Shown: piece after piece, positions 5,186-30,377 of the stretch
How the letters are laid out: each line of letters opens with the position of its first letter
Position numbering within the stretch: the first letter of the stretch is position 1
Assembly: GCF_018283645.1 (NCBI RefSeq)
Contig: NZ_JAGSXH010000010.1
Coordinates: 1 to 64,000, forward strand
Length of the DNA stretch: 64,000 nucleotides
Direction of reading: 5' to 3'
Origin: Actinocrinis puniceicyclus
GTDB lineage: Bacteria > Actinomycetota > Actinomycetes > Streptomycetales > Catenulisporaceae
The notes under the pieces: generated by a model
What the model saw: the letters and a program-made list of their open reading frames with translations, nothing else
Told to the model about the DNA's origin: nothing
The model's database searches: none
Made by a program: the position numbers and the translations under genes

Positions 5186-5391
5186 GCGGGCGTCTTGACT
5201 GGTTCCGGGGCAAACCGTCACGACGGACGGACGTTCGCTCCAGCCGGGAAGCCGGGTAGCGCAGAGCGAATCAGCCGAACGGCGCAGCCCGCGAGGCGGC
5301 GCAGCGGCCCCGAAACCGGTCAAGATGCCCTCCAAGCCCGAGACTCGTCCGCAGGAACCGGACGGGGTCGTCAAAGAAAGCGGGGAAGTTC

Positions 5392-6840
5392 GTGACTGAG
5401 ATGACCACGGCGCGAAAGGCCCGACCCACCCGGCTGGTCGCGGTCGGGGGCACCTTCCTGGCGATGCTCGACTCGACCGTGGTGAACCTGGCGCTGCCCA
5501 CCCTGCACCGCCGGTTCCCCACCGAGTCGATCTCCACGCTGTCGTGGGTCGTCACGGCGTACGTGGTGATGTTCGCGGCCATGCTCGCCCCGGCCGGGCG
5601 AATCGCCGACGCGCTGGGCCGCCGCATCGTCTTCCTCGGCGGCGTCGGGCTGTTCTCGGCGATGTCGCTCGCCGCCGCGCTGGCGCCCAACCTGGGATTC
5701 CTGATCGCGGCCCGCACGCTGCAGGGCATCGGGGCGGCCGCGATGGTCCCCGCGGCGCTGGCGATTCTGCTGCTGGACGGGCCCGCCGAACAGCGCGCGC
5801 GGGCGATCGGGTTCTGGAGCGCGGCCTCCGCGGCGGCCGCGGCCCTGGGACCGCCGGTCGGCGGCGCTCTGGTGGACGCCTTCGGCTGGGAGTCGGTGTT
5901 CTACGTCAACCTCCCCTTCGGCGCGGCCATGATCTACGGCGGGGTGCGGTCGCTGCCGCGGCCGCCGCGCGCGCAGCACTCGATCCGCTCCCGCATGCCC
6001 GACCCGGTGGGCACGGTGCTGCTCGCGGCGGGCACCGCGGCGCTGACGCTCGGCGTGACCCAGGGCCCCAGCTGGCACTGGACCTCGCCCGGCACGCTCG
6101 CCGCGCTGATCGGCGGGGCCGGCGCGATCGTCGCCGCGCTGCTGTACACCTCCCGCACGCGGGTGCCCGCGGTCGACACCTCGCTGTGGCGCATCCGCAC
6201 CTTCGCGGTGACGAACATCGTCTCCGTCTTCTACGGCATGGCGCAGTATCCCTGGCTGCTCGTCGGCGTGCTGTATGTCAGCACCGTGTGGCACTACAGT
6301 CCGCTCCAGGCCGGCCTGGCGATGACGCCCGGAGCCGTGACGGCCGCGATCACCGCGCTCGGCCTGGGCAAGCGGCTCGCAGTCCTCGGTCCGCGCCGGG
6401 TCCTGCTGTTCGGGCTCGTGGCGATCGTGGCCTGCGGCGTGTGGCTGGTGCTCGGACTGACCCAGCAGCCCAGGTTCCTGGCGCTCTGGCTGCCCGCCGG
6501 CCTGCTGGTGGGCGTCGGCATGGGCGCCACGACACTGGCCACCTCCGCGACCGCCGCGCTCAGCGCGCCGCCGGTCGCGTTCGCGACCGCGTCGGGCGTC
6601 AACACGATGGCACGGCAGTTCGGCGGCGCGCTCGGCATCGCGGTCGCCGCGGCGGTGCTTCAGACCATGGACGGCGCCCGGGCACAGGCATACGAGCGCG
6701 TATACGTGTACTGCACAGCCTTCGTCGTCGTCGCGTTCCTCATCACCCTGTGGCGGATGCGGATTCCGGCTCCACCGCAGGCCACGATGACACAGCACCC
6801 GGCCGGAGAGTCACGCGAGCAGGTCGCCGACTCCAGGTGA
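5392..6840 (+). CDS. MFS drug exporter, DHA2 (EmrB/QacA-like)
   Basis: Integral membrane proton-antiport exporter, 482 residues, with multiple hydrophobic segments consistent with 12-14 TM helices. Family signatures: LDSTVVNLALP in the first helix, LAPAGRIADALGRR in the loop after helix 2, and RTLQGIGAAAMVPAALAIL in helix 4. GTG start at 5392 follows CGGGGAAG. It is co-directional with the P450 and convergent with the minus-strand operon that ends at 6849. Probable product export or self-resistance. A second, different-type MFS protein is at 27339. Confidence 0.92.
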   Translation: MTEMTTARKARPTRLVAVGGTFLAMLDSTVVNLALPTLHRRFPTESISTLSWVVTAYVVMFAAMLAPAGRIADALGRRIVFLGGVGLFSAMSLAAALAPNLGFLIAARTLQGIGAAAMVPAALAILLLDGPAEQRARAIGFWSAASAAAAALGPPVGGALVDAFGWESVFYVNLPFGAAMIYGGVRSLPRPPRAQHSIRSRMPDPVGTVLLAAGTAALTLGVTQGPSWHWTSPGTLAALIGGAGAIVAALLYTSRTRVPAVDTSLWRIRTFAVTNIVSVFYGMAQYPWLLVGVLYVSTVWHYSPLQAGLAMTPGAVTAAITALGLGKRLAVLGPRRVLLFGLVAIVACGVWLVLGLTQQPRFLALWLPAGLLVGVGMGATTLATSATAALSAPPVAFATASGVNTMARQFGGALGIAVAAAVLQTMDGARAQAYERVYVYCTAFVVVAFLITLWRMRIPAPPQATMTQHPAGESREQVADSR

Positions 6841-6848
6841 GCAGGACG

Positions 6849-7580
6849 TCAGCCGCAGCCGCCCGCGTGCCCCTGATCGCCCGCGGGCAGCGCGGGGACG
6901 GGCCCCTTTTCGACGGATACCTCGTGCGGCCGCCTGTCCTCGTGCCCTGATTCAATGCCGCCGGGCGCCGCCTGGAGGGTCTCGACGAACCAGGGCAGGC
7001 GGTCCACGCCCCAGTACTTGTCGTAGCGGTGGATGAAGAACGGCACGCCGAAAACCCCGTCGGCGTCCACGGCCAGCAACGCCTCAAGGCCGAGCCGCCG
7101 GGCCGCGGGATCGTCCACCGCGCCGGCCAACTCGCCGGCGGGCAGGCCGAGTTCGTCGGCCAGCCGGGCGACGGTCGCCCGGTCGCAGATGTCCGCGCCT
7201 TCCTCCCAGCGGGCGCGGTACACCGCCGCCACGAAGGCACGCCCGCGGCCATACCGCTCGGCCAGCAAATACGCCAGGTGCGGAACCTCCCAGCACGGCT
7301 GCCGGTCCACCGGCCAGGTCACGGTCAGCCCGCGCCGGGCGGCCAGCCTGCGCACATCGGCCAGGACGTAGCGCGCCTTGGCCCTGGAGTGGTCGACGTA
7401 AGGGAAACCCGCGCCCGCCTCGGCGAGCATCCGGACGGATTCGCCGTCGGGTTCCCAGAACGGCCGCCACTCCAGCGACGCGGCGACCTGCGGGTACCGC
7501 TGCGTCAGATCCCAGTGCGCCAGCCACGAGTACGGGCTGCGCAGCGAGAAGTAGAACCTCGGCGGCGCCCCGGCGGTCAT
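6849..7580 (-). CDS. DsbA-fold isomerase/oxidoreductase (HCCA isomerase / kappa-GST like)
   Basis: 243-residue thioredoxin-fold protein of the DSBA / 2-hydroxychromene-2-carboxylate isomerase family. N-terminal SLRSPYSWLA has the catalytic Ser position used by the glutathione-dependent isomerases in place of a CxxC; the C-terminal part has GVFGVPFFIH, the conserved cis-Pro loop. In known members the role is isomerisation or thiol chemistry on an aromatic or enone substrate; mycothiol would be the expected thiol in an actinomycete. The start ATG (7580) overlaps the ketoreductase stop as ATGA, so it is the last gene of a coupled operon with ketoreductase and dehydratases. A double-bond isomerase role on the polyketide chain is one reading; participation in sulfur chemistry is another. 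Confidence 0.8.
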   Translation of the reverse strand: MTAGAPPRFYFSLRSPYSWLAHWDLTQRYPQVAASLEWRPFWEPDGESVRMLAEAGAGFPYVDHSRAKARYVLADVRRLAARRGLTVTWPVDRQPCWEVPHLAYLLAERYGRGRAFVAAVYRARWEEGADICDRATVARLADELGLPAGELAGAVDDPAARRLGLEALLAVDADGVFGVPFFIHRYDKYWGVDRLPWFVETLQAAPGGIESGHEDRRPHEVSVEKGPVPALPAGDQGHAGGCG

Positions 7581-8323
7581 ATCACCAGACCGCCGTCGAT
7601 GCAGAAGGCCTGCCCGGTGATGTAGCTCGCCGCGTCCCCGGCGAGAAAGCCGACCAGGGCGGCGACCTCCTCCGGCCGGCCCATCCGGCCCATCGCGATG
7701 TTCCCCACCGCCCGATCGCGCACAGACTCACGCAGCGCTCCGGTCATCTCCGTCTCGATCATTCCGGGGGCCACCGCGTTGGCCCGGATGCCGAAACGGC
7801 CGACCTCCAGGGCCAGCGAGCGGGTCATGGCGATGATCCCGGCCTTCGAGGCGGCGTAGTTCGCCTGGGTCGCGTTGCCGCTCAACCCGATCACCGAGGA
7901 CATGGTGATGATGCAGCCGGTCCGGCGCTTCATCATCGAGAACGCCGCCGAGCGGCACACGTGGAAGGTCCCGTCGAGGTTCACCCCGCGCACGTCCGTC
8001 CAGTCCTGCTCGCTCATCAGCACCAACGGGTTGTCCCGCACGATGCCGGCGTTCGCCACCGCGACGTCGAGGTCGCCGAGTTCCTCCTCCACCGCGGCGA
8101 CGAAGGAGCGCACCGCGTCGGCGTCGCGCACGTCGAGTTGCCTCAGGCACACCGCGGCGCCGGTCTCGCGCGCCTGGGCGGCCACCTCCTGCGCCGCCTT
8201 CTCATCGGTGTTGTAGGAGAATCCGACGTCGAAGCCGTCGGCCGCGAGCCGCAGCACCACGGCTCGTCCGATGCCCCGCGACCCGCCGGTCACCAGGGCG
8301 ACCTTCCGCTGTGAACCGTTCAT
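7577..8323 (-). CDS. 3-oxoacyl-ACP ketoreductase (FabG-like SDR)
   Basis: NADPH-dependent reductase of beta-ketoacyl-ACP, 248 residues, classical SDR. Cofactor motif TGGSRGIGRA near the N-terminus; NAG motif ANAGIVRDN; catalytic Ser in MSSVIG; Tyr/Lys in YAASKAG; C-terminal ITGQAFCIDGG as in FabG. ATG at 8323 has GGAAGGGA upstream. It lies between two dehydratases upstream and the DsbA-fold gene downstream, so it supplies the ketoreduction step for the stand-alone ketosynthases of the cluster rather than primary fatty acid synthesis (inference from context). Confidence 0.93.
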   Translation of the reverse strand: MNGSQRKVALVTGGSRGIGRAVVLRLAADGFDVGFSYNTDEKAAQEVAAQARETGAAVCLRQLDVRDADAVRSFVAAVEEELGDLDVAVANAGIVRDNPLVLMSEQDWTDVRGVNLDGTFHVCRSAAFSMMKRRTGCIITMSSVIGLSGNATQANYAASKAGIIAMTRSLALEVGRFGIRANAVAPGMIETEMTGALRESVRDRAVGNIAMGRMGRPEEVAALVGFLAGDAASYITGQAFCIDGGLVI

Positions 8324-8340: not shown

Positions 8341-8841
8341 TCAGCGCGCGGCGTGCTCCGTGGTCCGCTCGCGCAGGCTCTCGGCCGGGCGCAGGGCGAT
8401 GACGATCGAGGCCACGCTCAGCGCCTCGCAGCCGTCCGCGAGCAGACTCTCTCCCTCGAAGACCGCGGCGTCGGTGACCGCCCGGACCAGGCGCACCCGG
8501 TGTTCGAGCAGGTCGCCCGGCCGGGCCGGCCGCCCGAGCCGCAGGTCGGTGATGCTGCCGAAGAGGGTGACCATCCCCCGCAGTACGTCCGGATTCGGCC
8601 GGTCGAGGCAGGCGAGCAGGCCGGCGGCCTGGCACCAGGACTCGATCAGCAGGCTGACCGGGTAGTCGTGATCCGCGTCCTGCGACAACCCTCGATAGCA
8701 GGGTTCGTTCACGGTGACCGCCTTGACCGCCGTGAGCGAGACCCCGGGCTGCGCCGCGGTGACCCGGTCCACGAGCAGCATCGGGTAGCGGTGCGGCAGC
8801 AGGCGCTTGATCTGCTCGGGGCCGAACGGCGGCGCGATCAC
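8341..8841 (-). CDS. Hotdog-fold 3-hydroxyacyl-ACP dehydratase (FabZ-like)
   Basis: 166-residue single-hotdog protein. LLPHRYPMLLVDRV matches the FabZ signature, and LLIESWCQAAG supplies the family's acidic residue. Dehydrates 3-hydroxyacyl-ACP to the 2-enoyl form. Its GTG start (8841) overlaps the stop of the upstream dehydratase gene as GTGA, so the two are translationally coupled and may form a heteromer, as is known for the dehydratases of highly reducing type II polyketide systems (family knowledge). Followed 17 bases later by the ketoreductase. Confidence 0.88.
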   Translation of the reverse strand: MIAPPFGPEQIKRLLPHRYPMLLVDRVTAAQPGVSLTAVKAVTVNEPCYRGLSQDADHDYPVSLLIESWCQAAGLLACLDRPNPDVLRGMVTLFGSITDLRLGRPARPGDLLEHRVRLVRAVTDAAVFEGESLLADGCEALSVASIVIALRPAESLRERTTEHAAR

Positions 8842-9266
8842 TGCGGCTCCTGCTCGGCCTGGTAACGCAAGCGCACCTGCGCGGCGTGTGCCGGTTCCCC
8901 GTCCGGGTCGCGCGCCGCCGCGACGGTCACGCGCACCCGGCACACCCAGACGCCCGGCCGCGGTTCCTCGACGGTGACCTGCGCGCCGATCTCGTCTCCG
9001 GGATAGACCGGCCGGATGAAGCGGACGCTCTCCACGGCCGCGAGCCTCGGCGCGTGCCCGGCGCCGGCCAGAGCCTGCCGGCCGGCGGACTCGGCGCACT
9101 CGACCAGGCAGACCCCGGGGACGATGGGGAAACCGGGGAAATGGCCTTCGAGCACCGGCTCCGCGGCGCTGACCCGGTACGCCGCCGTCAGGGTTCGATG
9201 GTCTTGTTCCCGAACCCCGGGTTCGGAGCCGAGCGCCGTGGCACGAGTGCGTTGCGTGATGGTCAA
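8838..9266 (-). CDS. Hotdog-fold dehydratase (FabA/FabZ-like), partner subunit
   Basis: 142-residue hotdog protein with the catalytic-loop motif GHFPGFPIVPGV followed by LVECAESAG, the His and Glu positions of FabA/FabZ. It lacks the LPHRYP opening seen in its downstream neighbour, so the two are complementary rather than duplicates. TTG start at 9266 is chosen because GGGAGGG lies 5 bases upstream; no better start is available. First gene of the minus-strand operon dehydratase-dehydratase-ketoreductase-DsbA fold, divergent from the hydrolase at 9388. Confidence 0.88.
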   Translation of the reverse strand: MTITQRTRATALGSEPGVREQDHRTLTAAYRVSAAEPVLEGHFPGFPIVPGVCLVECAESAGRQALAGAGHAPRLAAVESVRFIRPVYPGDEIGAQVTVEEPRPGVWVCRVRVTVAAARDPDGEPAHAAQVRLRYQAEQEPQ

Positions 9267-9387
9267 GACAACCCTCCCATGCGTCCCCCGCCGGGCGATC
9301 GGTTCACGTGCACTCGATCAGTGACCGATGATAGTATACGTAGTCTTACAGCGTGTTGCATCCGCGAACCGGAGAACGGGTAATCGT
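9267..9387. promoter_or_regulatory. Divergent promoter/operator between dehydratase operon and hydrolase-DsrE operon
   Basis: About 120 bases between two divergently transcribed operons. An AT-rich island at 9328-9350 contains the palindrome GTATAC (9334-9339). Read on the minus strand it provides TATACT (9338-9333), a good -10 hexamer for the dehydratase operon. An ATG at 9328 lies in this island and is not regarded as a start. A shared operator for a cluster regulator is plausible. Confidence 0.45.
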
Positions 9388-10419
9388 ATGCGAACACCAT
9401 CGCCCGCGGCCCGCAACGCGCGGGGAGCCGAGCGCCGCGAACCGGGGCCGTGGCGGCGCGCACTGATCGACCTGGGCGGCGTCGTCGGCGTGCTGCCCGC
9501 GGTGTTCGCGGTGCGCTCCTCGGTGCGCGCGGCCTGGCTCACCCTGCATCCGCCGCACAAACCGGTCCAGCCGACGCCCGAGCGCTATGGCCTCAAGCAC
9601 GAGCGGGTCATGGTGGCCGGGGCCGACGGAGTGCGGCTGGCGTGCTGGTTCATCCCCTCCCCCGGGGCGCGTGACGGGGTGGTCCTCGGCCACGGCCTGA
9701 ACCGGGACAGCGGCATGCTGATGTCGCTGGCCAAGGCGCTGCACGAAGCCGGATACCACGTGCTCACCTTCGACATGCGCAACCACGGCGAGAGCGCGGA
9801 CGACGGGCTGCGCCGAGGCCAGTCGCCCCGGTTCGCCGTCGACTTCGGCAACGTCGTGCAGCACTTCAAGCAGCGCCCCGAGATGGCGGGCGGCCGCGCC
9901 GCCTGCCTCGGCATGTCGATGTCCGCGTGGACGGCGCTGGACGTGGCCAGGCTCGACCCCGGCTTCGTGCGCGCGGTGATCTGCGACAGCGGGCCGACGC
10001 TGGACATCGGCGACACGCTGCAGCGCATGTTCGAGGCGCGCCGCGGGCGCCTGCCCGCGTGGCAGCGCGGCCCGCTGATGTACCGCATCGCGCGCGGCGC
10101 CTACCGGCGCGCCGCGCTGTACTTCCTCAAACCCGCGCCGTGGCCGGTGCCGTTCACCGACCACAGCATCAGGCTCCTGTTCATCTCGGGAGCCGCCGAC
10201 CCGGTGGCCCGCCCGCAGGACGTGGAGCGGCAACTGGCCTGGTATCCCCAGGCCGACCACTGGCTGGTCCCTCGGGCCGGGCACAACACATGCCACATCA
10301 TGGCGGCGGACGAGTATGCCGAGCGGGTGCTCGCGGTGCTCGCCGCGGCCTTCGCCGATCAGCCGAACGAGGGAAGCACCGGCCATGGCGTCGTACCTGC
10401 TGATCGAGAGCCGCAGTGA
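9388..10419 (+). CDS. Alpha/beta hydrolase with N-terminal membrane/leader segment
   Basis: 343-residue serine hydrolase-fold protein. The N-terminus has basic residues and a hydrophobic stretch (LIDLGGVVGVLPAVFAV) that could anchor it to the membrane. The core shows GHGLNRDSG, DMRNHGESAD, the nucleophile elbow LGMSMSAW (G-x-S-x-S form), GAADPVARP and the terminal His in GHNTCH. ATG at 9388 follows GGAG; an upstream ATG at 9328 is rejected because it lies in the promoter island. The 3' end overlaps the first DsrE-like gene by 35 bases, so they are co-transcribed. Possible roles are product release, hydrolysis of a thioester, or resistance; the substrate is unknown. Confidence 0.82.
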   Translation: MRTPSPAARNARGAERREPGPWRRALIDLGGVVGVLPAVFAVRSSVRAAWLTLHPPHKPVQPTPERYGLKHERVMVAGADGVRLACWFIPSPGARDGVVLGHGLNRDSGMLMSLAKALHEAGYHVLTFDMRNHGESADDGLRRGQSPRFAVDFGNVVQHFKQRPEMAGGRAACLGMSMSAWTALDVARLDPGFVRAVICDSGPTLDIGDTLQRMFEARRGRLPAWQRGPLMYRIARGAYRRAALYFLKPAPWPVPFTDHSIRLLFISGAADPVARPQDVERQLAWYPQADHWLVPRAGHNTCHIMAADEYAERVLAVLAAAFADQPNEGSTGHGVVPADREPQ

Positions 10420-10690
10420 CCTGGAGAGCCCCGACGTGGCGGCGCTGCGCGAGTACGCCGCGCGGCTGTCGCGGGACGGGCACCGGGTCGACTACTTCCT
10501 GGTGCAGAATGCGGTGGTGGGCGCGCAGCCCGGCCTCGCCGCGCTCGGTGCGGCGGGGGTGGCGGTGCACGTGGACGGACAAGCGCTGTCGGCGCGCGCG
10601 GTGCCGGTCCCGGCCGGCGGCACGCGGGCGGACATCGCCGAGCTCGTCAGCCTTCTGATGACGCCGGGGGTCATCGCGGTCTGGCACTGA
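10385..10690 (+). CDS. DsrE-like protein 1 (no cysteine)
   Basis: 101-residue small protein with the DsrE/TusD-like alternating beta-alpha pattern: YLLIESRSD, then an amphipathic helix, GHRVDYFLVQNAV, LGAAGVAVHVDGQAL, and a final strand GVIAVWH. DsrE-family proteins carry persulfide sulfur in relay systems, but this one contains no cysteine at all, so it may be a structural subunit. ATG at 10385 follows GAGGGAAG and overlaps the hydrolase end. First of three consecutive DsrE-like genes, an arrangement recalling DsrEFH/TusBCD. Confidence 0.68.
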   Translation: MASYLLIESRSDLESPDVAALREYAARLSRDGHRVDYFLVQNAVVGAQPGLAALGAAGVAVHVDGQALSARAVPVPAGGTRADIAELVSLLMTPGVIAVWH

Positions 10691-10739
10691 ACCGGTGGTC
10701 GGCGCCGGCGTTCGCACCGTGCGGAAGGAGCGGGGTGAG

Positions 10740-11156
10740 GTGGATCGAGAGCAACCGGCGCCCGCCGGACGGCTGCTGTTCCTCGGGTTGATCGGCGCGC
10801 CGTACGAGTCCGACACGCTGACCACGGCGGTGCGGATCGCCGACGAGGCGCTGCGCCGGCAGCACCGGGTCGAGCTGTGGACCTGCGGGTTCGCCACCAC
10901 GCTGACCACCGTGCAGGTGAGCGGTGTCAAGCCGCGGGATGTGCGCGCATGGGATGCGCGCTATCCGACGCCCGCGGCGCTCGCCGCGCATCTGCTCGAG
11001 AGCCGCGGCGGGGACTTCCGGTGGCTGGTGTGCCGTTACTGTGCCGAGGAACGCGGCGCGCTGGAACAGATCCCGGGGGTACGGATACGCCCGCCGTACG
11101 AATTTCTGCAGCGCGCCACGGCGGCGGACGCCAGCCTGGTGCTCGGGGTGAAGTGA
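10740..11156 (+). CDS. DsrE-like protein 2 with CxxC
   Basis: 138-residue DsrE-fold protein. The first strand LLFLGLIGAPYESD and the helix that follows match the family's nucleotide-like loop (G-x-P-Y-x-S-D), then HRVELWTCGF, then WLVCRYCAEERGA with a C-x-x-C pair where DsrE-type proteins place the sulfur-carrying cysteine. GTG at 10740 is chosen over an upstream GTG at 10695 because GGAAGGAG lies at 10723-10730. Middle of the trio; ends one base before the next gene. The best candidate of the three for a redox- or persulfide-active subunit. Confidence 0.7.
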   Translation: MDREQPAPAGRLLFLGLIGAPYESDTLTTAVRIADEALRRQHRVELWTCGFATTLTTVQVSGVKPRDVRAWDARYPTPAALAAHLLESRGGDFRWLVCRYCAEERGALEQIPGVRIRPPYEFLQRATAADASLVLGVK

Positions 11157-11157
11157 C

Positions 11158-11553
11158 ATGGCGGACGCGTCGGCGGCCGGGACGCTGGTGGTGATCGAGC
11201 GGGCGCACCGCGGAGCGGTCGAACAGCAGTACGCGCACGTGCTGTGGCTGGTGCACGGGCTGCACAAGCAGTCGCCGATGGTGGTGGTGCTGCGCGGTTG
11301 CGCGGCGGTCTACGCCCTCGCCGCGGCGAAGCCCACGGGGCTGGAACTCGGCGGCGAGGTCTGGGGCGTTCCCCCCGACTATCCCGACGCGATCGAACGG
11401 CTCCGCGCGGACGGCGCGCCGGTATACGTATCGCGGCCCTGCCTGGAGCGCATCGGCGCGGCGGGACTCGACCTGTTGCCCGGCGTCATCGAACTGGACG
11501 AAGCCGGCATCACCGGGCTGGCCGCTTCATGCACGCGCTGGTGGTACCTGTAA
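11158..11553 (+). CDS. DsrE-like protein 3
   Basis: 131-residue DsrE/peroxiredoxin-like small protein. VVVLRGCAAVYAL, then GAPVYVSRPCLERIGA and LLPGVIELDEAGI match the C-terminal half of DsrE, with Cys in SRPCLERIG at the family's usual functional position, and another Cys near the end (AASCTRWWYL). ATG at 11158 follows the previous stop by one base, preceded by GGGGTGA. Last of the trio; followed by a 392-base gap before the acyl carrier protein. Confidence 0.72.
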   Translation: MADASAAGTLVVIERAHRGAVEQQYAHVLWLVHGLHKQSPMVVVLRGCAAVYALAAAKPTGLELGGEVWGVPPDYPDAIERLRADGAPVYVSRPCLERIGAAGLDLLPGVIELDEAGITGLAASCTRWWYL

Positions 11554-11945
11554 GACCATCTCAGGCAGGCGGACGGACACCGGGACGGGCCGGGACGGAG
11601 ACCGGACGACGGGCCGCCACGAACGATCAATACTCGAATACATGTGCTGCTGTCAGGGTTGGAATGTAAGCGGGCGGCGCAGCCATCGGCGGCACGCGGA
11701 TTTCCCTTTTCCCGCGACCGCTTCGAATCCGGCCGGGCGGCGCGAAGCCGATATGCCCGGCTTATCCGAAATGCCGAATGATTTATCCATTCCCGGCGCC
11801 GGAAGCGGTGCGGCAAGCGGTGACTAAGATGTCGATCACGCCCAGACTATCGCATTTCGCATCGAACGCTGATATATTCCTCAGAGCGGTCGCGAACTTT
11901 GCGCGGTCGGCCTTTACTCGAAATCAACGGGACTAGGGGAAGCCA
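11554..11945. other. 392-bp gap upstream of the first ACP operon
   Basis: No credible gene. Short open frames here have atypical composition. The right half (11750-11945) is comparatively AT-rich and contains the probable promoter of the ACP-ketosynthase operon described separately. Confidence 0.5.
11850..11878 (+). promoter_or_regulatory. Probable promoter of the ACP-KS operon with TCGCAT direct repeat
   Basis: TATATT at 11873-11878 is a good -10 hexamer. The -35 position is weak, and instead there is a direct repeat TCGCAT at 11850 and 11857, consistent with an activator-dependent promoter. The period of 7 differs from the usual 11-base spacing of SARP sites, so assignment to the cluster's SARP is uncertain. 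The ACP start is 68 bases downstream. Confidence 0.4.
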
Positions 11946-12197
11946 ATGGCAGCGGAAGTCCAGACACTTGACCCCGAGGAACTTCGGGTTTTCGTGGCTG
12001 ACGTGCTGGACCTGAACGTCTCCGACCTGACCGACGACGCGCACTTCGTCGCCGACCTCGGGATGGATTCGCTCAAGGCGCTCGAGGTCATGGTCGCGCT
12101 GGAGAAGAAGTACGAGATCAAGATCACCGAGGACGAGGTGCGCGACATGACCAACTTCGGTGACGTGCGGGAACTGGTGGCGGCGAAGATCGCCTGA
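11946..12197 (+). CDS. Acyl carrier protein 1
   Basis: 83-residue ACP. Phosphopantetheine attachment site DLGMDSLKALE with Ser42, acidic helices on both sides, and the KYEIKITEDEV recognition region typical of type II carriers. ATG at 11946 has AGGGGAAG upstream. First gene of an operon with a ketosynthase, a ketosynthase-like partner and an enoyl reductase, so it most likely carries the growing chain. A second ACP is at 23407 on the other strand. Confidence 0.95.
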   Translation: MAAEVQTLDPEELRVFVADVLDLNVSDLTDDAHFVADLGMDSLKALEVMVALEKKYEIKITEDEVRDMTNFGDVRELVAAKIA

Positions 12198-12257
12198 CTC
12201 CGATCCGGCGGGGCCCCGCGCGGCGCGCGGCCCGGCCCCGCCTCTGGGGGGTTTCCC

Positions 12258-13442
12258 GTGGAGCGCATCCTCATCACCGGCCTCGGCGTGGTCTCCTGCG
12301 TCGGTCAGGACATCGAGACCTTCTGGTCCGCGCTGATGCGCGCGCACAACGAACCGGGGCTGGTGCCCGACCCGCACGCCCGCATGCCCAACCGGTTGCT
12401 GTACGTGGTGACCGACCCGCCGCGGGCCACCGATTCGCAGGGCAATGAGCTGAGCCGCACCAGCGCGTTCGCCGTCCAGGCCGCGCGCGAAGCCCTCGCC
12501 GACGCAGGACTCGGCGATGCCCTTGACGGTGCCGGCGACGGCATCGGAGTGTCGATCGGCACCGGAGTGGGCGACGCCGGCCTGTTCGAGGCGGCGCGCG
12601 CCGGCGGCCGGGTGCCGCGCGCGGCGGACGGCTTCCCGTTCAAGACCTCCGGCGCGCTGGCCGAGCGGTTCGGCCTGACCGGCCCCAACCTCACCGTCAG
12701 CACCGCCTGCTCCGCCTCCGCCTACAGCGCGAGCCTCGCCGTGCAGGCGGTTCGCGACGGCCTCGCGGACGTCGTGCTCGCGGGCGGCGCCGACGGCTAC
12801 ACCCGGGTCGGCGTGGCCTGCTTCAACCGCATGGGCGGGCTCGACCCGGTGCGCTGCCGGCCGTTCGACGCCCGCCGCGAGGGCACCGTCTTCGGCGAGG
12901 GCGCGGCGATGATGGTCGTCGAGTCCGAGGAGCACTGGCGCCGCCGCGGCGGCCGGCACGCGTACGCCGCGCTGGAAGGCGCCGGATGGAGCTGCGACGC
13001 CCACCACCCGACCGCGCCGGAGCCGACCGGCCGCGCCATCGCGCGGGCGATGCGCGCCGCGCTGCACGAAGCCGGGCTCGACGCCGAAGACATCGGCTGC
13101 GTGGTCCCGCACGGCACCGGCACCCCGCTCAACGACGTGGTCGAAAGCAGGGTGCTGCGCGAGGTGCTCGCCGGGTCGGACCGCACGCCCCCGGCCGTCT
13201 ACAGCCTCAAGTCGATGCTCGGGCACACCGGCGGCGCCGCCGGCGGTTTCGCGGCGCTCACCGCGGCGCTGATCCTCAGCCGGCGCACCGCTCCGCCGAA
13301 CCCGCCGCTGGCCGATCCGGACCCGGAGTGTCCCTTCCCGCTGCACACGGGCGAGCCGCAGCGGCGCGCCTTCGGCCACGCGCTGGTCAACGCCTATGCG
13401 TTCGGCGGCAACAACATCTCGCTGGTCCTGGGAGAGGTCTGA
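12258..13442 (+). CDS. Ketosynthase (KS alpha, complete triad)
   Basis: 394-residue type II beta-ketoacyl-ACP synthase, decarboxylative Claisen condensation. Active-site Cys151 in VSTACSASA; His in VVPHGTGTPLND; second His with Lys in SLKSMLGHTGGAAGG; C-terminal NAYAFGGNN. GTG start at 12258 with a G-rich site upstream; no alternative. Followed four bases later by a ketosynthase-like gene lacking the Cys, forming a KS/chain-length-factor-like pair. The family resembles FabF and the KSs of highly reducing type II systems. Confidence 0.94.
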   Translation: MERILITGLGVVSCVGQDIETFWSALMRAHNEPGLVPDPHARMPNRLLYVVTDPPRATDSQGNELSRTSAFAVQAAREALADAGLGDALDGAGDGIGVSIGTGVGDAGLFEAARAGGRVPRAADGFPFKTSGALAERFGLTGPNLTVSTACSASAYSASLAVQAVRDGLADVVLAGGADGYTRVGVACFNRMGGLDPVRCRPFDARREGTVFGEGAAMMVVESEEHWRRRGGRHAYAALEGAGWSCDAHHPTAPEPTGRAIARAMRAALHEAGLDAEDIGCVVPHGTGTPLNDVVESRVLREVLAGSDRTPPAVYSLKSMLGHTGGAAGGFAALTAALILSRRTAPPNPPLADPDPECPFPLHTGEPQRRAFGHALVNAYAFGGNNISLVLGEV

Positions 13443-13446
13443 GAGA

Positions 13447-14535
13447 GTGTCTGGTTCAGTCGCGCCGGCGTTTCGCCCGGCCCCGGGCGAGACCCGGGCC
13501 GTGGTGACCGGGATCGGGATCGCGGTGCCGACTGCGGCGAGCCCGGCCGACCTGCTCGCCGCGCGGTCCCGGCTCGGCGCGGGGCAGCCCCGCGCGGGCG
13601 CCGGGCCGGACTGGTTCGACCCGGTATCGGTGCTGGGCCAGCGCGGCTGGAAGTACCTGTCCCCCGCCACCCGCTTCCTGCTCGGCGCGACGGCGCGGGC
13701 GCTGGCGGCCGCGCGTCTGGAGCCCGGGGCGTACGAGGACACGCAGCTGGCGGTCGCGGCGGGAACGAACTTCGCGGCCAACCCGGTGCTGGCCCGCTTC
13801 GACGCCGCGGTCCTGGCCGAGGGCTCCGACGCGCTCAGCCCGGCGGAGGCACCGAACTTCTCGGTCAACATGCCGGCCAGCCACGCGGCGGCGAAACACG
13901 GCATGCGCGCGTTCAGCCTGACCCTGACCAATCCGGTGGTGGCCGGACTGGAGGCGCTGCTGGCGCTCACCCGGGCGCTGGGCACCGGCCGCGCCGCCGC
14001 GGGCCTGGCCGGAGCCACCGAGGAGATGCCTGATGTACCGGTGCGCGACGACGCGGGCGAAGGCGCCTGCGCGCTGGCCGTGGAGAGCGAGAAGGGGGCG
14101 CGGGAACGCGGGGCCGGCGCACTGGCCGAGATCGCCGGCGGGTTCTGCCGCTTCCTGCCGCACCCGGCCGAGACGGCGGCGAGCACGCAGGGCAGCGCGC
14201 GGCTCGCGTCGGCGCTCGGCGATCCGCTGACCGCGCTGGTCACCGCCGCCGGCCGCGGCGCGCAGGGCGACCCGATCCCTTTCATCGTGTGCTGCGATGA
14301 CCCGGAACTGGCCGGCCGCCTTACCCGGTACTGCACCGAACGCTGCGCGGCGGCGGGCGTGACGCTCACGCCGGTAGCCGGATATCTCGGCGGCGACGGC
14401 GCGTTCTTCTCGGTCTCGCCGCTGCTCCAGCTCGCCGGGCTGATCACAGAACACGGACACGGGCTGGTGCTCGGCACCGCCCCGCACGGAAACCTGGCGG
14501 CCGTGCTGCTGCGCCCCGCCCGACCGGCCGCCTGA
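13447..14535 (+). CDS. Ketosynthase-like partner without active-site Cys (chain-length-factor-like)
   Basis: 362-residue thiolase-fold protein homologous to KS but degenerate. Where the KS has TACSAS this protein reads LTLTNPVVAG, so the nucleophilic Cys is replaced, apparently by Val, and no HGTGT or GHT motif is present. Start taken as GTG at 13447, four bases after the KS stop, with GGGAGAGG before it. By analogy with KS beta/CLF proteins it would heterodimerise with the upstream KS and shape the chain-length pocket. The degree of divergence is larger than for typical aromatic-polyketide CLFs, which keep a Gln at this position. Confidence 0.82.
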   Translation: MSGSVAPAFRPAPGETRAVVTGIGIAVPTAASPADLLAARSRLGAGQPRAGAGPDWFDPVSVLGQRGWKYLSPATRFLLGATARALAAARLEPGAYEDTQLAVAAGTNFAANPVLARFDAAVLAEGSDALSPAEAPNFSVNMPASHAAAKHGMRAFSLTLTNPVVAGLEALLALTRALGTGRAAAGLAGATEEMPDVPVRDDAGEGACALAVESEKGARERGAGALAEIAGGFCRFLPHPAETAASTQGSARLASALGDPLTALVTAAGRGAQGDPIPFIVCCDDPELAGRLTRYCTERCAAAGVTLTPVAGYLGGDGAFFSVSPLLQLAGLITEHGHGLVLGTAPHGNLAAVLLRPARPAA

Positions 14536-14568
14536 CCGCGGCCCCGATCCGGAACGGAGATCCGCGAC

Positions 14569-15378
14569 ATGGCGGCCGGCGTCCTCGACGGAGTCTGGAG
14601 CCTGATACTGGGCGTCTCGGGTGGCATGGGCCGCGGCTGCGCCCTCGCCCTCGCCGAGCAGGGCTCGAACATCCTCGGCGTGCACCTGGACACCGCGGCC
14701 GGGCAGAGCGCGGCCGACGAACTCGAGCGGCAGCTGCGCGGCCTCGGCGTGCAGACCCGCTTCTTCAACGAGAACGCGGCCTCGGACCGCAGCCGGGCCA
14801 AGATCATCGCCGAGGCGGCCGGCCTGGTCGGGCCGGCGGGGGTGCGGGTGTTCATGCACTCACTCGCCTTCGGCTCGCTCGTGCCGTTCCTGCCCGGCCC
14901 CGACGGCGACGGCGACGAGCCGCACGCCACGCGCGCGCAGATGGACATGACGCTGACGGTGATGGCGCACAGCCTCGTGTACTGGACCCAGGACCTGCTC
15001 GCCGCCGGGCTGCTCGGCGCGGGCGCCAAGATCTTCGCGATGACCAGCGCGGGCACCGCCAGGGTGACCCGCAGCTACGGGATGGTCTCGGCGGCCAAGT
15101 GCGCGCTGGAGTCCCACGTGCGCCAGCTCGCGGTCGAACTGGCGCCGCGCGCGGTGAGCGTCAACGCGATCCGCGCCGGCATCACGCTGACCGAGTCCTT
15201 CCTGCGCATTCCGGAAAGCGGCGAGCTGAGCGAGCGGGCCCGCCTGGGCAATCCGCACGGCCGGCTGACCACCGAGCAGGACGTCGCCGAGGCCGTCGTG
15301 CTGCTGGCCCAGGCCCGCTCCTCCTGGCTGACCGGCAACGTGATCGGCGTGGACGGCGGCGAGATCCTGACGGTGTGA
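14569..15378 (+). CDS. Enoyl-ACP reductase-like SDR (FabI/FabL type)
   Basis: 269-residue short-chain dehydrogenase. The cofactor loop GVSGGMGRGCALALAEQG and catalytic spacing YGMVSAAK (Tyr-x6-Lys) are those of FabI/FabL enoyl reductases, not the Tyr-x3-Lys of ketoreductases; MTSAGT precedes it. C-terminal LTGNVIGVDGGE as in SDRs. Expected reaction: reduction of 2-enoyl-ACP to the saturated acyl chain. ATG at 14569, 34 bases after the KS-like gene, last in the operon. Its presence argues that at least part of the chain is fully reduced. Less likely, it is an unusual ketoreductase. Confidence 0.82.
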   Translation: MAAGVLDGVWSLILGVSGGMGRGCALALAEQGSNILGVHLDTAAGQSAADELERQLRGLGVQTRFFNENAASDRSRAKIIAEAAGLVGPAGVRVFMHSLAFGSLVPFLPGPDGDGDEPHATRAQMDMTLTVMAHSLVYWTQDLLAAGLLGAGAKIFAMTSAGTARVTRSYGMVSAAKCALESHVRQLAVELAPRAVSVNAIRAGITLTESFLRIPESGELSERARLGNPHGRLTTEQDVAEAVVLLAQARSSWLTGNVIGVDGGEILTV

Positions 15379-15379
15379 C

Positions 15380-15419
15380 GGCGCCCGCGGCCCGGCGCGC
15401 CGAAGAGGGACCGGGCGCC
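15380..15419. terminator. Bidirectional terminator-like hairpin between convergent operons
   Basis: GGCGCCCG at 15380-15387 pairs with CGGGCGCC at 15412-15419, with a 24-base loop. It sits exactly between the stop codons of the convergent enoyl reductase and flavoprotein genes. Confidence 0.5.
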
Positions 15420-15422
15420 CCC

Positions 15423-16673
15423 TCATGTCGGCATCAGCCCGGCGCGCGTGAGGATCCGCACGATGTTGTCCAGCGCCGAGAACTCCTCCGGCAGCACGCT
15501 GCCGGCCAGGATGCCGAAGAACTGGTCGCGGTCCTCCTCGTTGTCCTCCAGCGCCTTGAGCACCCGCGCGGTGAGCCGGTCGAGCGGCTGGTAGCGCGCC
15601 TGTTCCAGGGTGTACTTGTACAGCGGCTCGGCATCGCGGTTGCGCCGGACCTCGTACTCGGCCAGCGCCTCATCGGCCGGGCGCGCGCCCTCCAGCGCCT
15701 CGTGCAGCGCCGCGGCGAGGTACTCCGCGTCACGGAAGGCGTCCGACATGCCCAGCGCCGTCACCGGGTCCTTGTGGTACCCGGCGTCGCCGACCAGCGC
15801 CCAGCCGGGTCCGAACGGCTTGCGGAAGAAGTTGGGCACGTGGTGGGTGCCGGAGAAGCGCTCCACCCGGCGCGCGTCGCGCAGCCGCTCGGCGAACTCG
15901 GGCACGTCCCGCTCGATCGCCGCGAAGTATCCGCCCTCGACGTCCTTGCGCAGTTCCCGCCATTCGGCGTGCGGGGAGCCGCACAGCACCACGGCCAGGC
16001 CGTCGTGCGTCGGGATCGCCGGGACGCAGCGGCCCGGACGCCAGTGGATGAGCAGATCGTCGAGGTTCAGGTTCTCGAAGTAGGTGTAGTAGGTGACGGT
16101 CAATGGCGGCACCGTGTTGTACTCCTCGGCGCCGACGGTGCGAGCCACCAGGGACCGCATGCCGTCGGCGCCGACGACGAAGCTCGCGGGCACGGTGACC
16201 CGCGCGCCGCTCGAGGTGCGGCCGCGCACTCCGGTCACCCGGTCGCCGTCGCCCAGCAGTTCGGTGACCAGGAACCGCTCCTCGAACTCGACCCCTGACT
16301 CGACAGCGGCGTCGATGAGCAGCTTGTCGAGCACGTACCGCCGCGGGCACACGCCGACCCGGGTGCCCTGGTAGGCCGGCGGACGGCCGGTGAGCCGCAC
16401 CTGACCCCAGTCGGAGGTGAGCCGGGCCACCGGCGGACAGCCGGTGGCCAGCAGCCGGTCCAGAAGACCCCACCGCTCCAGCCGGGCCGCCCCGTAGAAC
16501 GGAATGAAGTGCGAGGACATCGTGTCGCTGGGAAAACCCATCCGGTCCACCAGCAGCACCCGGTGCCCCATGCGGGCCAGCAGCATGGCCGTGGCGGAGC
16601 CCGCGACGCGGGCACCCACCACCACCACGTCGTAGCCGCGGCCGGCTCCAGTGACGGCCGTCGCACCGGCCAC
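15423..16673 (-). CDS. FAD-dependent oxidoreductase (PHBH-fold / geranylgeranyl-reductase-like)
   Basis: 416-residue flavoprotein. N-terminal dinucleotide fold VVVVGARVAGSATA, then GADGMRSLVAR (DG motif) and LVGDAGYHKDP (GD motif), all marks of the p-hydroxybenzoate-hydroxylase superfamily. In secondary metabolism such enzymes hydroxylate, epoxidise or reduce double bonds. GTG start at 16673 is separated by one base from the upstream stop, so it is translationally coupled to the MoaD/ThiS-like gene. Last gene of the long minus operon starting with ACP 2. Substrate unknown; a polyketide-chain oxygenase is the simplest reading. Confidence 0.86.
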   Translation of the reverse strand: MAGATAVTGAGRGYDVVVVGARVAGSATAMLLARMGHRVLLVDRMGFPSDTMSSHFIPFYGAARLERWGLLDRLLATGCPPVARLTSDWGQVRLTGRPPAYQGTRVGVCPRRYVLDKLLIDAAVESGVEFEERFLVTELLGDGDRVTGVRGRTSSGARVTVPASFVVGADGMRSLVARTVGAEEYNTVPPLTVTYYTYFENLNLDDLLIHWRPGRCVPAIPTHDGLAVVLCGSPHAEWRELRKDVEGGYFAAIERDVPEFAERLRDARRVERFSGTHHVPNFFRKPFGPGWALVGDAGYHKDPVTALGMSDAFRDAEYLAAALHEALEGARPADEALAEYEVRRNRDAEPLYKYTLEQARYQPLDRLTARVLKALEDNEEDRDQFFGILAGSVLPEEFSALDNIVRILTRAGLMPT

Positions 16674-16674
16674 G

Positions 16675-16950
16675 TCAGCCTCCGCTGATCGCGGGCAGGA
16701 TCAGCAGCTCGTCGCCCTCGCGCACCGGTGTGTCAAGGCCGGAACGCTCGCGTACGTCGTCTCCGTTCACGTAGAGGTTGACGTAACGGAAGGGCCTGCC
16801 GCCCTCGTCGACGATCTTCCTGGTGGCGCCGGGCACGACGGTTTCGAGCCCGGCCAGGACGGCGCCGACCGTGCCCGCCGCCGGGACCTGCACGTCGATC
16901 AGGCCGGGGCGCCCGTCCTGGCTGAGCGTCGCCGGGATACGCACCTTCAC
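16675..16950 (-). CDS. MoaD/ThiS-family sulfur carrier protein
   Basis: 91-residue ubiquitin-fold protein ending in ILPAISGG. The exposed C-terminal Gly-Gly is the adenylation/thiocarboxylation site of ThiS, MoaD and CysO. RYVNLYVNGDDVRERSGL and EGDELLILPA fit the MoaD/CysO subgroup. The carrier would deliver sulfide from a C-terminal thiocarboxylate. No E1-like activating enzyme (ThiF/MoeB type) is present in the window, so activation would depend on a chromosomal enzyme, as known for some antibiotic clusters that recruit primary-metabolism sulfur machinery. GTG start 16950; embedded between a SnoaL-like gene and a flavoprotein in the ketosynthase operon. Confidence 0.88.
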   Translation of the reverse strand: MKVRIPATLSQDGRPGLIDVQVPAAGTVGAVLAGLETVVPGATRKIVDEGGRPFRYVNLYVNGDDVRERSGLDTPVREGDELLILPAISGG

Positions 16951-16965: not shown

Positions 16966-17373
16966 TCAGGCGGACCAGAACTTGTTGACGAATACGTCGT
17001 CGTACACCCAGATGCGCGCCTCCACGACCTTGTTGCTCACCGGGTCGAACCTGAAGGTCTGCACGCCCGGCATGACCAGCGTCATGCCCTTGCGCTCGCC
17101 CCGGTAGGTGGAGACGACGGCGGCGAGGCTGTCGTCGGTGGCGATGTTGTGGATCTCCGCGCGGAAGGTGCCGTCGGTCACCTCGGCGCTCTTGCGCAGC
17201 CACTCGAAGACCGCGTCCAGGCCCACGATCGTGCCGGAGAGCGGGTGGTCGCCCGGCGTGTGCCACACCACGTTCTCGTCGATGCCCTCGGCCAGCCGCT
17301 CGTACTTGGCGTGCTCGAACCGCATGTGGCCGAGTCTCAGAAGCTTGATCAGAGCGTTGTCCTCAACCGCCAC
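16966..17373 (-). CDS. SnoaL-like (NTF2-fold) protein 1
   Basis: 135-residue NTF2/SnoaL-fold protein, with the usual conical alpha+beta pattern (LRLGHMRFEHAKYERLAEGI, then VVWHTPGDHPLSGTIVG, then GTFRAEIHNIATDD). The family contains polyketide cyclases, ketosteroid-isomerase-like enzymes and small hydroxylase partners. GTG at 17373 follows AAGGTGAGAG. Adjacent to and co-directional with a second SnoaL-like gene with a similar core (HPLSGTIVGLDAV versus NPLAADIVGIDAV), so the two look like a diverged duplication and could form a heterodimer. Confidence 0.83.
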   Translation of the reverse strand: MAVEDNALIKLLRLGHMRFEHAKYERLAEGIDENVVWHTPGDHPLSGTIVGLDAVFEWLRKSAEVTDGTFRAEIHNIATDDSLAAVVSTYRGERKGMTLVMPGVQTFRFDPVSNKVVEARIWVYDDVFVNKFWSA

Positions 17374-17456: not shown

Positions 17457-17915
17457 TCAGTAAGCCCAGAAGTCGTCGGAGGCGGGCTGATCCTCCATGA
17501 ACAGCTCGCGCTCGTAGACCTTTCCGTCGCCGGGCCGCAGCCGCCAGACGTTCACGATCTGCTGGTCGAGGGTGCGCCCGCGGCGTTCGGCGCGCACCCG
17601 CATGAGGCAGAAGACCGTGCGCTCGTCGGCGGCCAGGTCCAGGACCTCGGCGCGGAAGGTGCCGTTCGTCTCCTGCTGCACCCGGCGGAAGAACTCGAGC
17701 ACGGCGTCGATGCCGACGATGTCGGCGGCCAGCGGGTTGACGTGCGGGACCCGCCACACCACGTCGTCCGCGAGCATCGCGCGCATCAACTCGACCCGTC
17801 CGGCGTGGAAGAGCTCGATGGCCCGCCGGGCGCCGTCGAGATTCGCCGCGATGCCCTTGCCCGCGCCCGCGGCCGCGCCCTGCGCGCCTGCCGTCGCGGT
17901 GCTGCCTGTCGCCAT
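17457..17915 (-). CDS. SnoaL-like (NTF2-fold) protein 2
   Basis: 152-residue NTF2/SnoaL-fold protein with an Ala/Gly-rich N-terminal extension of about 20 residues. Core VVWRVPHVNPLAADIVG, then GTFRAEVLDLAADER. ATG at 17913-17915 with CGGAAGGAG upstream. Sits directly upstream of SnoaL-like protein 1 in the same operon; resembles it closely enough to suggest duplication. A cyclase, isomerase or dehydratase role on the polyketide intermediate is possible; no catalytic residues can be assigned with confidence. Confidence 0.83.
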   Translation of the reverse strand: MATGSTATAGAQGAAAGAGKGIAANLDGARRAIELFHAGRVELMRAMLADDVVWRVPHVNPLAADIVGIDAVLEFFRRVQQETNGTFRAEVLDLAADERTVFCLMRVRAERRGRTLDQQIVNVWRLRPGDGKVYERELFMEDQPASDDFWAY

Positions 17916-17940: not shown

Positions 17941-18936
17941 TCAGCCGGCCGCGTCGCCGCGCAGCGCGGCGAGCGTCGGCTCGTCGAATTCGACCAGTCG
18001 CCAGTCGCGCCGGTCGAGGATCTCGGCGTACCCGTGGGTGATCCGGCCGCGGGCCGTGCACACGTACTGGCCGCCGCGGCGCACGTAGCACTCCATCCGG
18101 GCGGTGTACGTCGCGCGCTTGAAGATCTCTTCCACGGTGAAGACGACGTACAGTTCCTCCTCCATCAGCGCCTCGGCCAGGATCTCGACCCGGGCGCGCG
18201 GCACCACCGGGATCCACCGGCGCCCGTCGACCAGGGTGCGGATGGAGATGCCGCGCTCGGCGAGGAACAGGTCGACGACCTCCTCCATGAGGCGCAGATA
18301 GCCGGAGTGCTGGAGGCGCCGGGAGTAATGGCAGTAGAAGTACGGGATCCGCCAGCGCCACACGATCGCGTTGGCCCCGGGTGCGGCGAGCCCTGATTCG
18401 GTGTCACCGACGATGCCGCGGCCTTCCAGCGGCGCGGGCGGCGCGTAGGACAGGGGCGCGTCCACGCCCACCGCGCCGCCGCGTTCGATGCGGCGCACCA
18501 CGGCCGGTACGCCGTCGGGCGGCTGCGGCGCGTCGTCATCGAGGCGGAAGACGGCGCGCACTGAGGCCGTCGCGGCCAGGACCGAGCGCGGTTCGCCGGG
18601 GCGCTCGACGCTGGTGCGCGTGCGCAGCACCAGTTCGCCGGAGTCGTCGCCGGCCTGCGGGATCACCTGCGTTCGCACCTCGTCGTCCATGTGCAGCGCG
18701 GTGAGGATCCGCGCGTCGCCGTCCACGATGTCCAGGCCTAGGCCGTGTTCCTCGTACAGCCGCCGGGGGGCCAGGCCGGTTCGCCGCAGATGTTCGAGCA
18801 CTGCCTCCTCGACGAGGTACATGACGTGCTTGAAGCCGATCCAGGTGCAGATGTTCGAGCCCTCGAAGCGGGGCCTGGACACGATCACGGTGCCCAGCTC
18901 GCCCGCCGGGCTCTTCTCGGGTGTCGTCGTCGTCAT
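17941..18936 (-). CDS. Double-hotdog thioesterase/dehydratase-like protein
   Basis: 331-residue protein with two hotdog domains: an N-terminal one with GFKHVMYLVEEAVLEHLRRTG and a C-terminal one with YSRRLQHSGYLRLMEEVVDLF, each the long central helix of a 4HBT-type fold, followed by strands such as VVPRARVEI. Such proteins act as acyl thioesterases or dehydratases. ATG at 18936, 9 bases after the hydrolase stop and followed by SnoaL-like genes, so part of the operon that starts at ACP 2. Candidate chain-releasing thioesterase, an alternative to the adjacent alpha/beta hydrolase, or an additional dehydratase. Confidence 0.72.
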   Translation of the reverse strand: MTTTTPEKSPAGELGTVIVSRPRFEGSNICTWIGFKHVMYLVEEAVLEHLRRTGLAPRRLYEEHGLGLDIVDGDARILTALHMDDEVRTQVIPQAGDDSGELVLRTRTSVERPGEPRSVLAATASVRAVFRLDDDAPQPPDGVPAVVRRIERGGAVGVDAPLSYAPPAPLEGRGIVGDTESGLAAPGANAIVWRWRIPYFYCHYSRRLQHSGYLRLMEEVVDLFLAERGISIRTLVDGRRWIPVVPRARVEILAEALMEEELYVVFTVEEIFKRATYTARMECYVRRGGQYVCTARGRITHGYAEILDRRDWRLVEFDEPTLAALRGDAAG

Positions 18937-18945
18937 CCGGTTCTC

Positions 18946-19782
18946 TCAGCGGTTCTCGGCGAGGGGGTGGGTGGGCACCGGCGCGAGGCCGGACTCTTCG
19001 AGGAACCGGCTGATCAGCGCCGCGGCGCGCAGGGGGTCCTCGAGCATGGTGAAGTGGCCGCCGCCGCCGATCACCTCGACGCGGGCGTCCGGCAAGGCGC
19101 GGGCCAGGGCGCGGCAGTCGCGCGGATACGAGGCGGTGTCCGTTTCCCCGCCGATGACCAGGCACGGCGCGCGCAGCTTGTCCAGGTCGAGGCGGGGCGT
19201 GGCGGTGAACAGGGTGAAGTACGCCAGCCAGCCGTACACGCCGATCCGGTCGCGCACCCGCTCGGCCATGGCCTGGGCCAGGTCGGGATCGCGCGGGCGC
19301 GCCTGAGCCTGGATGCCCGCGTACAGCACCTCGGTGAAGTCGTTGAGGTAGTGGCTGATCGCCGGCCAGTCGAACTCGGCGCTCGACGAGCGGTAGAACG
19401 GGGAGAAGAGCACCAGCGCGGCCGGGTCGAGCGCGCCGGTGCCCGCGCACAGCAGGTCCAGCAGCGCGTTCGCGGCGTAGGAGTGGGCGATCAGGATGCG
19501 CGGGCGGCACCCGGCCAGGTCCAGCGCGCGTTCCAGCCACACCGCCGGCGCGGCCTCGACGGTCCAGTCGCTGCCGTCGGCGGCGTCCCAGGGCAGTTCG
19601 AAGGACCACAGCCGCAGGCCGGCGGGCAGGTGCCGGGCCAGCGGTTCCCAGACGCGCTCGCTTTCCCCGAGCCCGTGCAGCAGGGCGACGCAGGCGTCGG
19701 GCTGCGCGCTGCCGTCGCGCAGCAGTCGCGCGCTCACCCGGCCGCCGGGGAAATCCGCGTGGCGGACGGCGGCGGGGTTCAT
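18946..19782 (-). CDS. Alpha/beta hydrolase (thioesterase-like)
   Basis: 278-residue alpha/beta hydrolase: oxyanion region LLHGLGESERVW, nucleophile elbow LIAHSYAAN (Ser; the glycine before it is Ala), acid GGETDTASY, and His in GGGGHFTM. Start ATG at 19782 overlaps the stop of the fused ketosynthase gene as ATGA, giving tight translational coupling. Likely removes or transfers an acyl chain; product release or editing thioesterase is a reasonable inference. No signal peptide. Confidence 0.85.
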   Translation of the reverse strand: MNPAAVRHADFPGGRVSARLLRDGSAQPDACVALLHGLGESERVWEPLARHLPAGLRLWSFELPWDAADGSDWTVEAAPAVWLERALDLAGCRPRILIAHSYAANALLDLLCAGTGALDPAALVLFSPFYRSSSAEFDWPAISHYLNDFTEVLYAGIQAQARPRDPDLAQAMAERVRDRIGVYGWLAYFTLFTATPRLDLDKLRAPCLVIGGETDTASYPRDCRALARALPDARVEVIGGGGHFTMLEDPLRAAALISRFLEESGLAPVPTHPLAENR

Positions 19783-23406: not shown

Positions 23407-23664
23407 CTAGGCCCGGTTGCCGGTGTATTCGGCGATGACCTGGTAGATCCCCTGCAGGTTGACCATCCGGGCGAGCTCGGCCTGGTTGATCTCGACCTTG
23501 AACTCGCGCTCCAGAGCGGCCAGGATCTCGATCGCGCGCAGCGAGTCGGCGTCGTGGTCCTCCTTGAACAGACTCTCGTCGGTCAGTTCCGCCGGGTCGA
23601 TCTCGAGAATACCGACGACTATGTCTGTGATCTGCTGTCGCTGGTCCTCGCTCAGAACGTTCAT
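23407..23664 (-). CDS. Acyl carrier protein 2
   Basis: 85-residue ACP with attachment site DHDADSLRAIE (Ser41) and a FKVEINQAELARM region after it. Begins the minus-strand operon ACP-KS-fused KS-hydrolase-hotdog-SnoaL-SnoaL-sulfur carrier-flavoprotein. ATG at 23664 follows AGGAGCGT. Distinct from ACP 1, which reads DLGMDSL; the separate ACP suggests separate starter and extender carriers or two successive KS modules. Confidence 0.94.
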   Translation of the reverse strand: MNVLSEDQRQQITDIVVGILEIDPAELTDESLFKEDHDADSLRAIEILAALEREFKVEINQAELARMVNLQGIYQVIAEYTGNRA

Positions 23665-30363: not shown

Positions 30364-30377
30364 GTTTCACGGCCGGA

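Follow-up and report, generated by a model that had tools for sequence, protein, structure and literature searches.

The window analysed here, a 64,000-nucleotide stretch of the Actinocrinis puniceicyclus genome (assembly GCF_018283645.1, contig NZ_JAGSXH010000010.1, positions 1 to 64,000 of the forward strand), carries a type II polyketide synthase (PKS) cluster in which three small genes stand in a row. We call these genes the trio and their products P0001, P0002, and P0003. An earlier note, made from the sequence alone, had read them as three consecutive DsrE-fold genes (10385-11553) of a sulfur-transfer module. Their places were confirmed, and all three have a coding-like codon composition:

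10385-10690, plus strand: P0001, DsrH/TusB-like subunit with no cysteine; TusB/DsrH family TIGR03011 matched by 9 of 18 family members (best 9e-4); best Protein Data Bank (PDB) match of the family profile, DsrH 2hy5_C
10740-11156, plus strand: P0002, DsrE/TusD-like subunit; Pfam DsrE (PF02635) matched by 11 of 18 family members (best 4e-5); AlphaFold2 model matching YchN and DsrE 2hy5_A
11158-11553, plus strand: P0003, DsrF-like subunit; AlphaFold2 model matching YchN, DsrF 2hy5_B, and DsrH; linked in 76/76 loci

The start of the P0001 gene overlaps the 3' end of an upstream hydrolase gene by 35 bp, the P0002 gene begins with a GTG codon at 10740, and the P0003 gene follows it 1 nt downstream. 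Taken singly, the window proteins fall below the curated cut-offs for TusB/C/D or DsrE (scores of 16.1 and 13.0 bits against cut-offs of 49.2 and 22.7 bits): P0001 matched TIGR03011 with E=0.0094, the match of P0002 to Pfam DsrE was weak (E=0.12), and a Pfam search with the P0003 sequence gave no match. The P0001 family, which has a conserved VWH at its C-terminus, gave DsrH, TusB, TusC, and YchN as the top four PDB matches of its profile. The model of P0002 (predicted local distance difference test score, pLDDT, 89) was closest to YchN (E 2e-7) and DsrE 2hy5_A (E 6e-7), and that of P0003 (pLDDT 86) matched YchN best (8e-8) and DsrF 2hy5_B second; for both models, YchN, the DsrEFH/TusBCD subunits, and other DsrE-family structures ranked above all else. 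The DsrE assignment thus held in the profile matches of the family members and in the structure models of P0002 and P0003, and P0001-P0003 are H-like, E-like, and F-like proteins of the DsrEFH/TusBCD fold.

As in DsrEFH of Allochromatium and TusBCD of E. coli, three DsrE-fold subunits are encoded by adjacent genes, and one of them, the E/D-like subunit, bears a Cys at the catalytic position (C98 of CxxCxxxRG). The trio differs from these relays in its very low sequence identity, its gene order H-E-F, its linkage to polyketide genes, and its H- and F-like subunits, which have no conserved cysteine. YchN (1jx7), to which both modelled subunits are structurally closest, has the CxxCxxxRG motif in common with the E-like subunit but is a single protein, whereas the trio is a three-gene set. 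We infer that the three trio proteins form one heteromeric complex.

The cysteines are distributed as the earlier note had described, with none in P0001 and a CxxC in P0002, which contains C49 and a CRYC sequence (C98 and C101). In the E-like family all three, lying in WxCG and CxxCxxxRG, were invariant in 77/77 sequences, while no Cys column exceeded 28% in the 76 H-like sequences examined for the conserved cysteine of DsrH. By the Cys-to-Arg spacing, we take C98 to be the equivalent of TusD Cys78. DsrC/TusE is the acceptor of the DsrEFH/TusBCD relay. A search for it (PF04358) gave no match in this draft genome, which is 98.85% complete, and the E. coli control was positive; a TusA-family match is present on contig C199. 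A canonical sulfur relay by the trio is unlikely, because no DsrC/TusE was found and the H-like subunit is without its conserved cysteine.

To place the trio, 394 genomes of the order were searched. A P0003 search and a P0002-profile search recovered the same ~34 genomes, and all 34 genomes matched by the E-like profile also carry a polyene-type ketosynthase (KS). A scan of named genomes gave 76 loci, each with a P0003 relative and 75 of them with a P0001 relative (the exception, L087, is truncated), set among genes for KS, chain length factor (CLF), acyl carrier protein (ACP), paired FabA-like dehydratases (DH), ketoreductase (KR), and a DsbA-like isomerase. Since the three-gene set is conserved, the trio is not a chance arrangement. 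The trio-bearing loci are cinnamoyl-lipid, highly reducing type II PKS clusters, and the window cluster is of this type by its polyene-type KS/CLF pairs, KR, DH pair, ACP, and DsbA-like isomerase. The isomerase accompanied the trio cluster in 33 of the 34 trio genomes, the remaining contig being truncated; among the KS loci without the trio (n=40) it was present in 25 and absent from 15 (Fisher p 5e-5, calculated on relatives that are not independent).

At two loci, L141 (~5114-5610) and L148 (14543-14837), a single trio relative, of P0001 or of P0003, is all that is left between the thioesterase and CLF genes, and these remnants look as if the trio were decaying. A short recurrent type (L140, L142, L145, L149, L150, L154, L157, and L159) has the order ACP-KS-CLF-KR-DsbA isomerase, with no FabA-like dehydratase found nearby and with several gene families not present in trio-bearing loci.

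A three-protein set has been described in such a pathway: in kitacinnamycin, Kcn17-Kcn18-Kcn19 carry out the 6pi-electrocyclic closure that gives the benzene ring (Shi et al. 2022, doi 10.1021/jacs.2c02855, cited after PMC9321520). The latter paper has YssX of youssoufene likewise catalysing 6pi-electrocyclic ring closure, and it describes the epoxinnamide cluster as being without homologues of Kcn17-Kcn18-Kcn19 or YssX; the epoxinnamide gene letters EpcL-T leave no space for a trio. The DsbA-like protein of the YsfG/GlaV/Sky27 type is a polyene cis-trans isomerase (PMC9381841).

Like the trio, Kcn17-Kcn18-Kcn19 are three consecutive proteins of a cinnamoyl-lipid type II PKS pathway, and the two are likened by pathway and gene number only. 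With a three-protein cyclase in the pathway and a strictly conserved set of three unnamed small proteins encoded in these same clusters, the simplest reading is that they are identical. The co-occurrence of trio and isomerase supports a cyclase role, since closure requires a Z double bond, which the isomerase makes. We consider it probable that the trio is a complex of the DsrEFH fold that has come to serve as a polyene cyclase, with Kcn17-Kcn18-Kcn19 as its putative counterpart by analogy. The KS/CLF pairs, ketoreductase, and dehydratases would build an ACP-bound polyene, and the DsbA-like isomerase would convert one E double bond to Z. The catalytic step of the trio, again by analogy, would be to bind the ACP-bound Z-triene and promote its 6pi-electrocyclic closure to a cyclohexadiene, which would then be oxidised to an ortho-disubstituted benzene. 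If true, this explains the role of three unnamed small proteins that are widespread in cinnamoyl-lipid clusters and gives the DsrE sulfur-relay fold a second use, in making carbon rings. In the open literature we found no paper that mentions DsrE alongside type II polyketide synthase.

Characterised clusters were compared with the trio-bearing loci. The gla, ysf (youssoufene), cal, and mbg clusters resemble the window cluster in their KS/CLF pairs, KR, paired DH, and isomerase, and the gene order of gla and cal matches that of trio-bearing loci. GlaD and GlaR are ACPs, GlaE-Q, F-G, and J-K are KS-CLF pairs, GlaS/T are DH, GlaU is the KR, and GlaV is the isomerase (PMC9381841). The common trio-bearing gene order (L060, L064, L068, and L105) fits all published gla letters, GlaD-V, and the five leftover slots L-P would then be a short-chain dehydrogenase/reductase (SDR), the hydrolase, and the trio. 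Similarly, the mbg KS-CLF pairings (PMC13311259) would have space for the trio at Mbg18-20 if the L119 layout applies, and the title of a cited work on mbg reports a required 6pi-electrocyclization. The gla product, globisporamic acid, is C20H30O2 and contains a disubstituted benzene. S. griseus BIG105, which reportedly has a cluster >90% like cal (WS9326A), carries in one cluster the trio, nonribosomal peptide synthetase genes, and a block in an order fitting Cal30 (KS)-Cal37 (KR). WS9326A contains no sulfur, and the products matched to trio clusters so far (globisporamic acid and WS9326A) are sulfur-free.

Several observations weigh against the cyclase assignment. Many isomerase-positive clusters have no trio, and in some of them the genes that would flank it are directly joined. 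Gene-family clustering and extended neighbourhoods revealed no replacement for the trio in the trio-free clusters, nor any single gene substituting for it, so that in isomerase-positive clusters of this kind ring closure must have another route; YssX has been reported as a second cyclase. The identity with Kcn17-19 rests on pathway and gene number, and the kcn numbering does not fix a position: when it was mapped onto one layout, a cal-type core fitted KS=7 and KR=14, and no layout placed 17-19. Finally, an electrocyclisation needs no invariant cysteines, and the presence of three suggests thiol, persulfide, or metal chemistry.

The loss of the trio from otherwise similar clusters, together with its strict linkage to ACP, DH, and CLF genes, would also be expected of a non-catalytic or regulatory type II PKS assembly factor, for example a docking scaffold for ACP or KS/CLF. 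We regard such a factor as very improbable, as the presence of invariant Cys, Arg, and Trp residues indicates catalysis and the literature describes a three-protein cyclase function.

The invariance of C49, C98, and C101 raises a different possibility, namely that trio cysteines add to the conjugated chain and then leave it, aiding its E/Z isomerisation, or pass a thiol to the DsbA-like isomerase, with closure following. Actinomycetes generally use mycothiol, which is in keeping with thiol or persulfide chemistry of this sort. The linkage of trio and isomerase also favours it, and the isomerase is described as glutathione-dependent (PMC9381841). However, the isomerase occurs in 25 of the 40 trio-free KS loci and is in this sense independent of the trio, and the literature gives ring closure to the three-protein set, which leaves this alternative rather unlikely. 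Within the cyclase reading, thiol, persulfide, or metal roles of the E-like cysteines in ring formation are possible. A DsrEFH-like complex might act as a cysteine-dependent pericyclase, in which reversible thiol or persulfide addition steers closure or aromatisation of the ACP-bound polyene; we hold this doubtful, and to our knowledge no DsrE-family protein has such chemistry. The three invariant cysteines make the mechanism a testable question.

The sulfur-transfer module of the earlier note had a fourth member, a MoaD/ThiS-like protein ending in ISGG in the KS operon, and this protein is present as described:

16675-16950, minus strand: P0004, MoaD/ThiS-like carrier ending ISGG (PF02597 ThiS, E=2.3e-11)

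The match to PF02597 is above the family cut-off and runs to the terminal GG. The P0004 gene is separated by 1 nt from the FAD-enzyme gene that follows it, and it belongs to a minus-strand operon that also contains SnoaL, thioesterase, and KS/CLF genes. As noted earlier, the window has no activating enzyme (E1); a genome search found a MoeZ-like E1 with a rhodanese-like C-terminus elsewhere (contig C244), by which P0004 could be charged. The genome has five further ThiS-family genes. The nearest same-genome relative of P0004 (C33:87689) is 45% identical and adjoins threonine synthase (thrC), as do relatives in other genomes, and relatives occur in 394/394 genomes. There were none in the 180 fetched polyketide loci of the pathway. 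We therefore rejected the carrier as a conserved pathway member, the closest relatives inspected being thrC-linked and relatives being present in all 394 genomes. P0004 has the carrier fold and GG end of the thrC-linked actinobacterial MoaD/ThiS carrier but lies in a biosynthetic operon rather than beside threonine synthase. On this distribution it is a local acquisition of the window cluster, separate from the trio and a diverged cousin of the carrier found in all 394 genomes; a separate sulfur role within this cluster is possible.

These results bear on the proposal that trio and carrier together pass sulfur into the product as a thioamide, thioacid, or thiophene. In its favour, the DsrE fold keeps its catalytic-position Cys, a GG-ending carrier lies in the same cluster, and the genome encodes a MoeZ-type E1 with a rhodanese-like domain. 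The fold assignments behind the proposed module stand. The joint module does not, because trio and carrier never co-occur elsewhere (0/180 loci), matched products are sulfur-free, and DsrC/TusE was not found. The claim that sulfur is inserted into the product fares no better: the matched cluster yields C20H30O2, no known sulfur-inserting enzyme was recognised beside the carrier, and the literature points to ring closure. We judge sulfur transfer into the product highly improbable, and the presence of DsrE-like genes in a biosynthetic cluster is not in itself a sign of sulfur in its product.

Elsewhere, at L224 (1-3026; G222:C1 near 755109), a carrier ending GGCC has as neighbours, by eye, a CaiB-type coenzyme A-transferase-like fragment, a methyltransferase, and a class V aminotransferase (cysteine-desulfurase-like). 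On this by-eye reading, L224 is a stronger candidate than the window for a cassette that inserts sulfur.

The remaining genes of the window cluster are as follows (FAD, flavin adenine dinucleotide):

6849-7580, minus strand: DsbA-like polyene cis-trans isomerase (YsfG/GlaV/Sky27 type, by position and pathway; PF01323; 49-66% to relatives in homologous clusters)
7577-8320, minus strand: ketoreductase, start codon approximate (PF13561)
8341-8757, minus strand: FabA-like dehydratase 1, start approximate (PF07977)
8838-9266, minus strand: FabA-like dehydratase 2 (PF07977)
9328-10419, plus strand: alpha/beta hydrolase (PF12146; same position in related clusters L060, L064, and L068)
11946-12197, plus strand: acyl carrier protein ACP1 (PF00550)
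12258-13442, plus strand: ketosynthase KS1 (PF00109/PF02801)
13447-14535, plus strand: chain length factor CLF1 (PF00109)
14569-15378, plus strand: SDR/enoyl-ACP-reductase-like protein (PF13561)
15423-16673, minus strand: FAD-dependent oxidoreductase (geranylgeranyl-reductase/hydroxylase-like; PF01494)
16966-17373, minus strand: SnoaL-like protein (PF12680)
17457-17915, minus strand: SnoaL-like protein (PF12680)
17941-18936, minus strand: thioesterase-like protein TE2 (PF13279)
18946-19893, minus strand: alpha/beta hydrolase ABH2, start uncertain (PF12697)
19779-20960, minus strand: chain length factor CLF2 (PF00109)
20961-22121, minus strand: ketosynthase KS2 (PF00109/PF02801)
22124-23365, minus strand: ketosynthase KS3 (polyene type; GlaE/Cal30 position; PF00109/PF02801; up to 66% to relatives)
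23407-23664, minus strand: acyl carrier protein ACP2 (PF00550)
23972-25051, plus strand: chain length factor CLF3 (PF00109)

A third SnoaL-like protein lies at 25041-25430, and the two at 16966-17373 and 17457-17915 had no relatives in the fetched cinnamoyl-lipid loci. Unlike gla, ysf, cal, and mbg, the window cluster adds the carrier, the three SnoaL proteins, a 2-amino-2-deoxyisochorismate (ADIC)-synthase-like fusion, adenosine monophosphate (AMP) ligases, and a halogenase. Positions 28907-44480 hold a 3-deoxy-D-arabino-heptulosonate 7-phosphate (DAHP) synthase, the anthranilate/ADIC-synthase-like fusion, two AMP ligases, an FAD hydroxylase, a tryptophan-type halogenase, and a flavin reductase, and this gene content hints that a halogenated aminobenzoate-type unit may be attached to the lipid.

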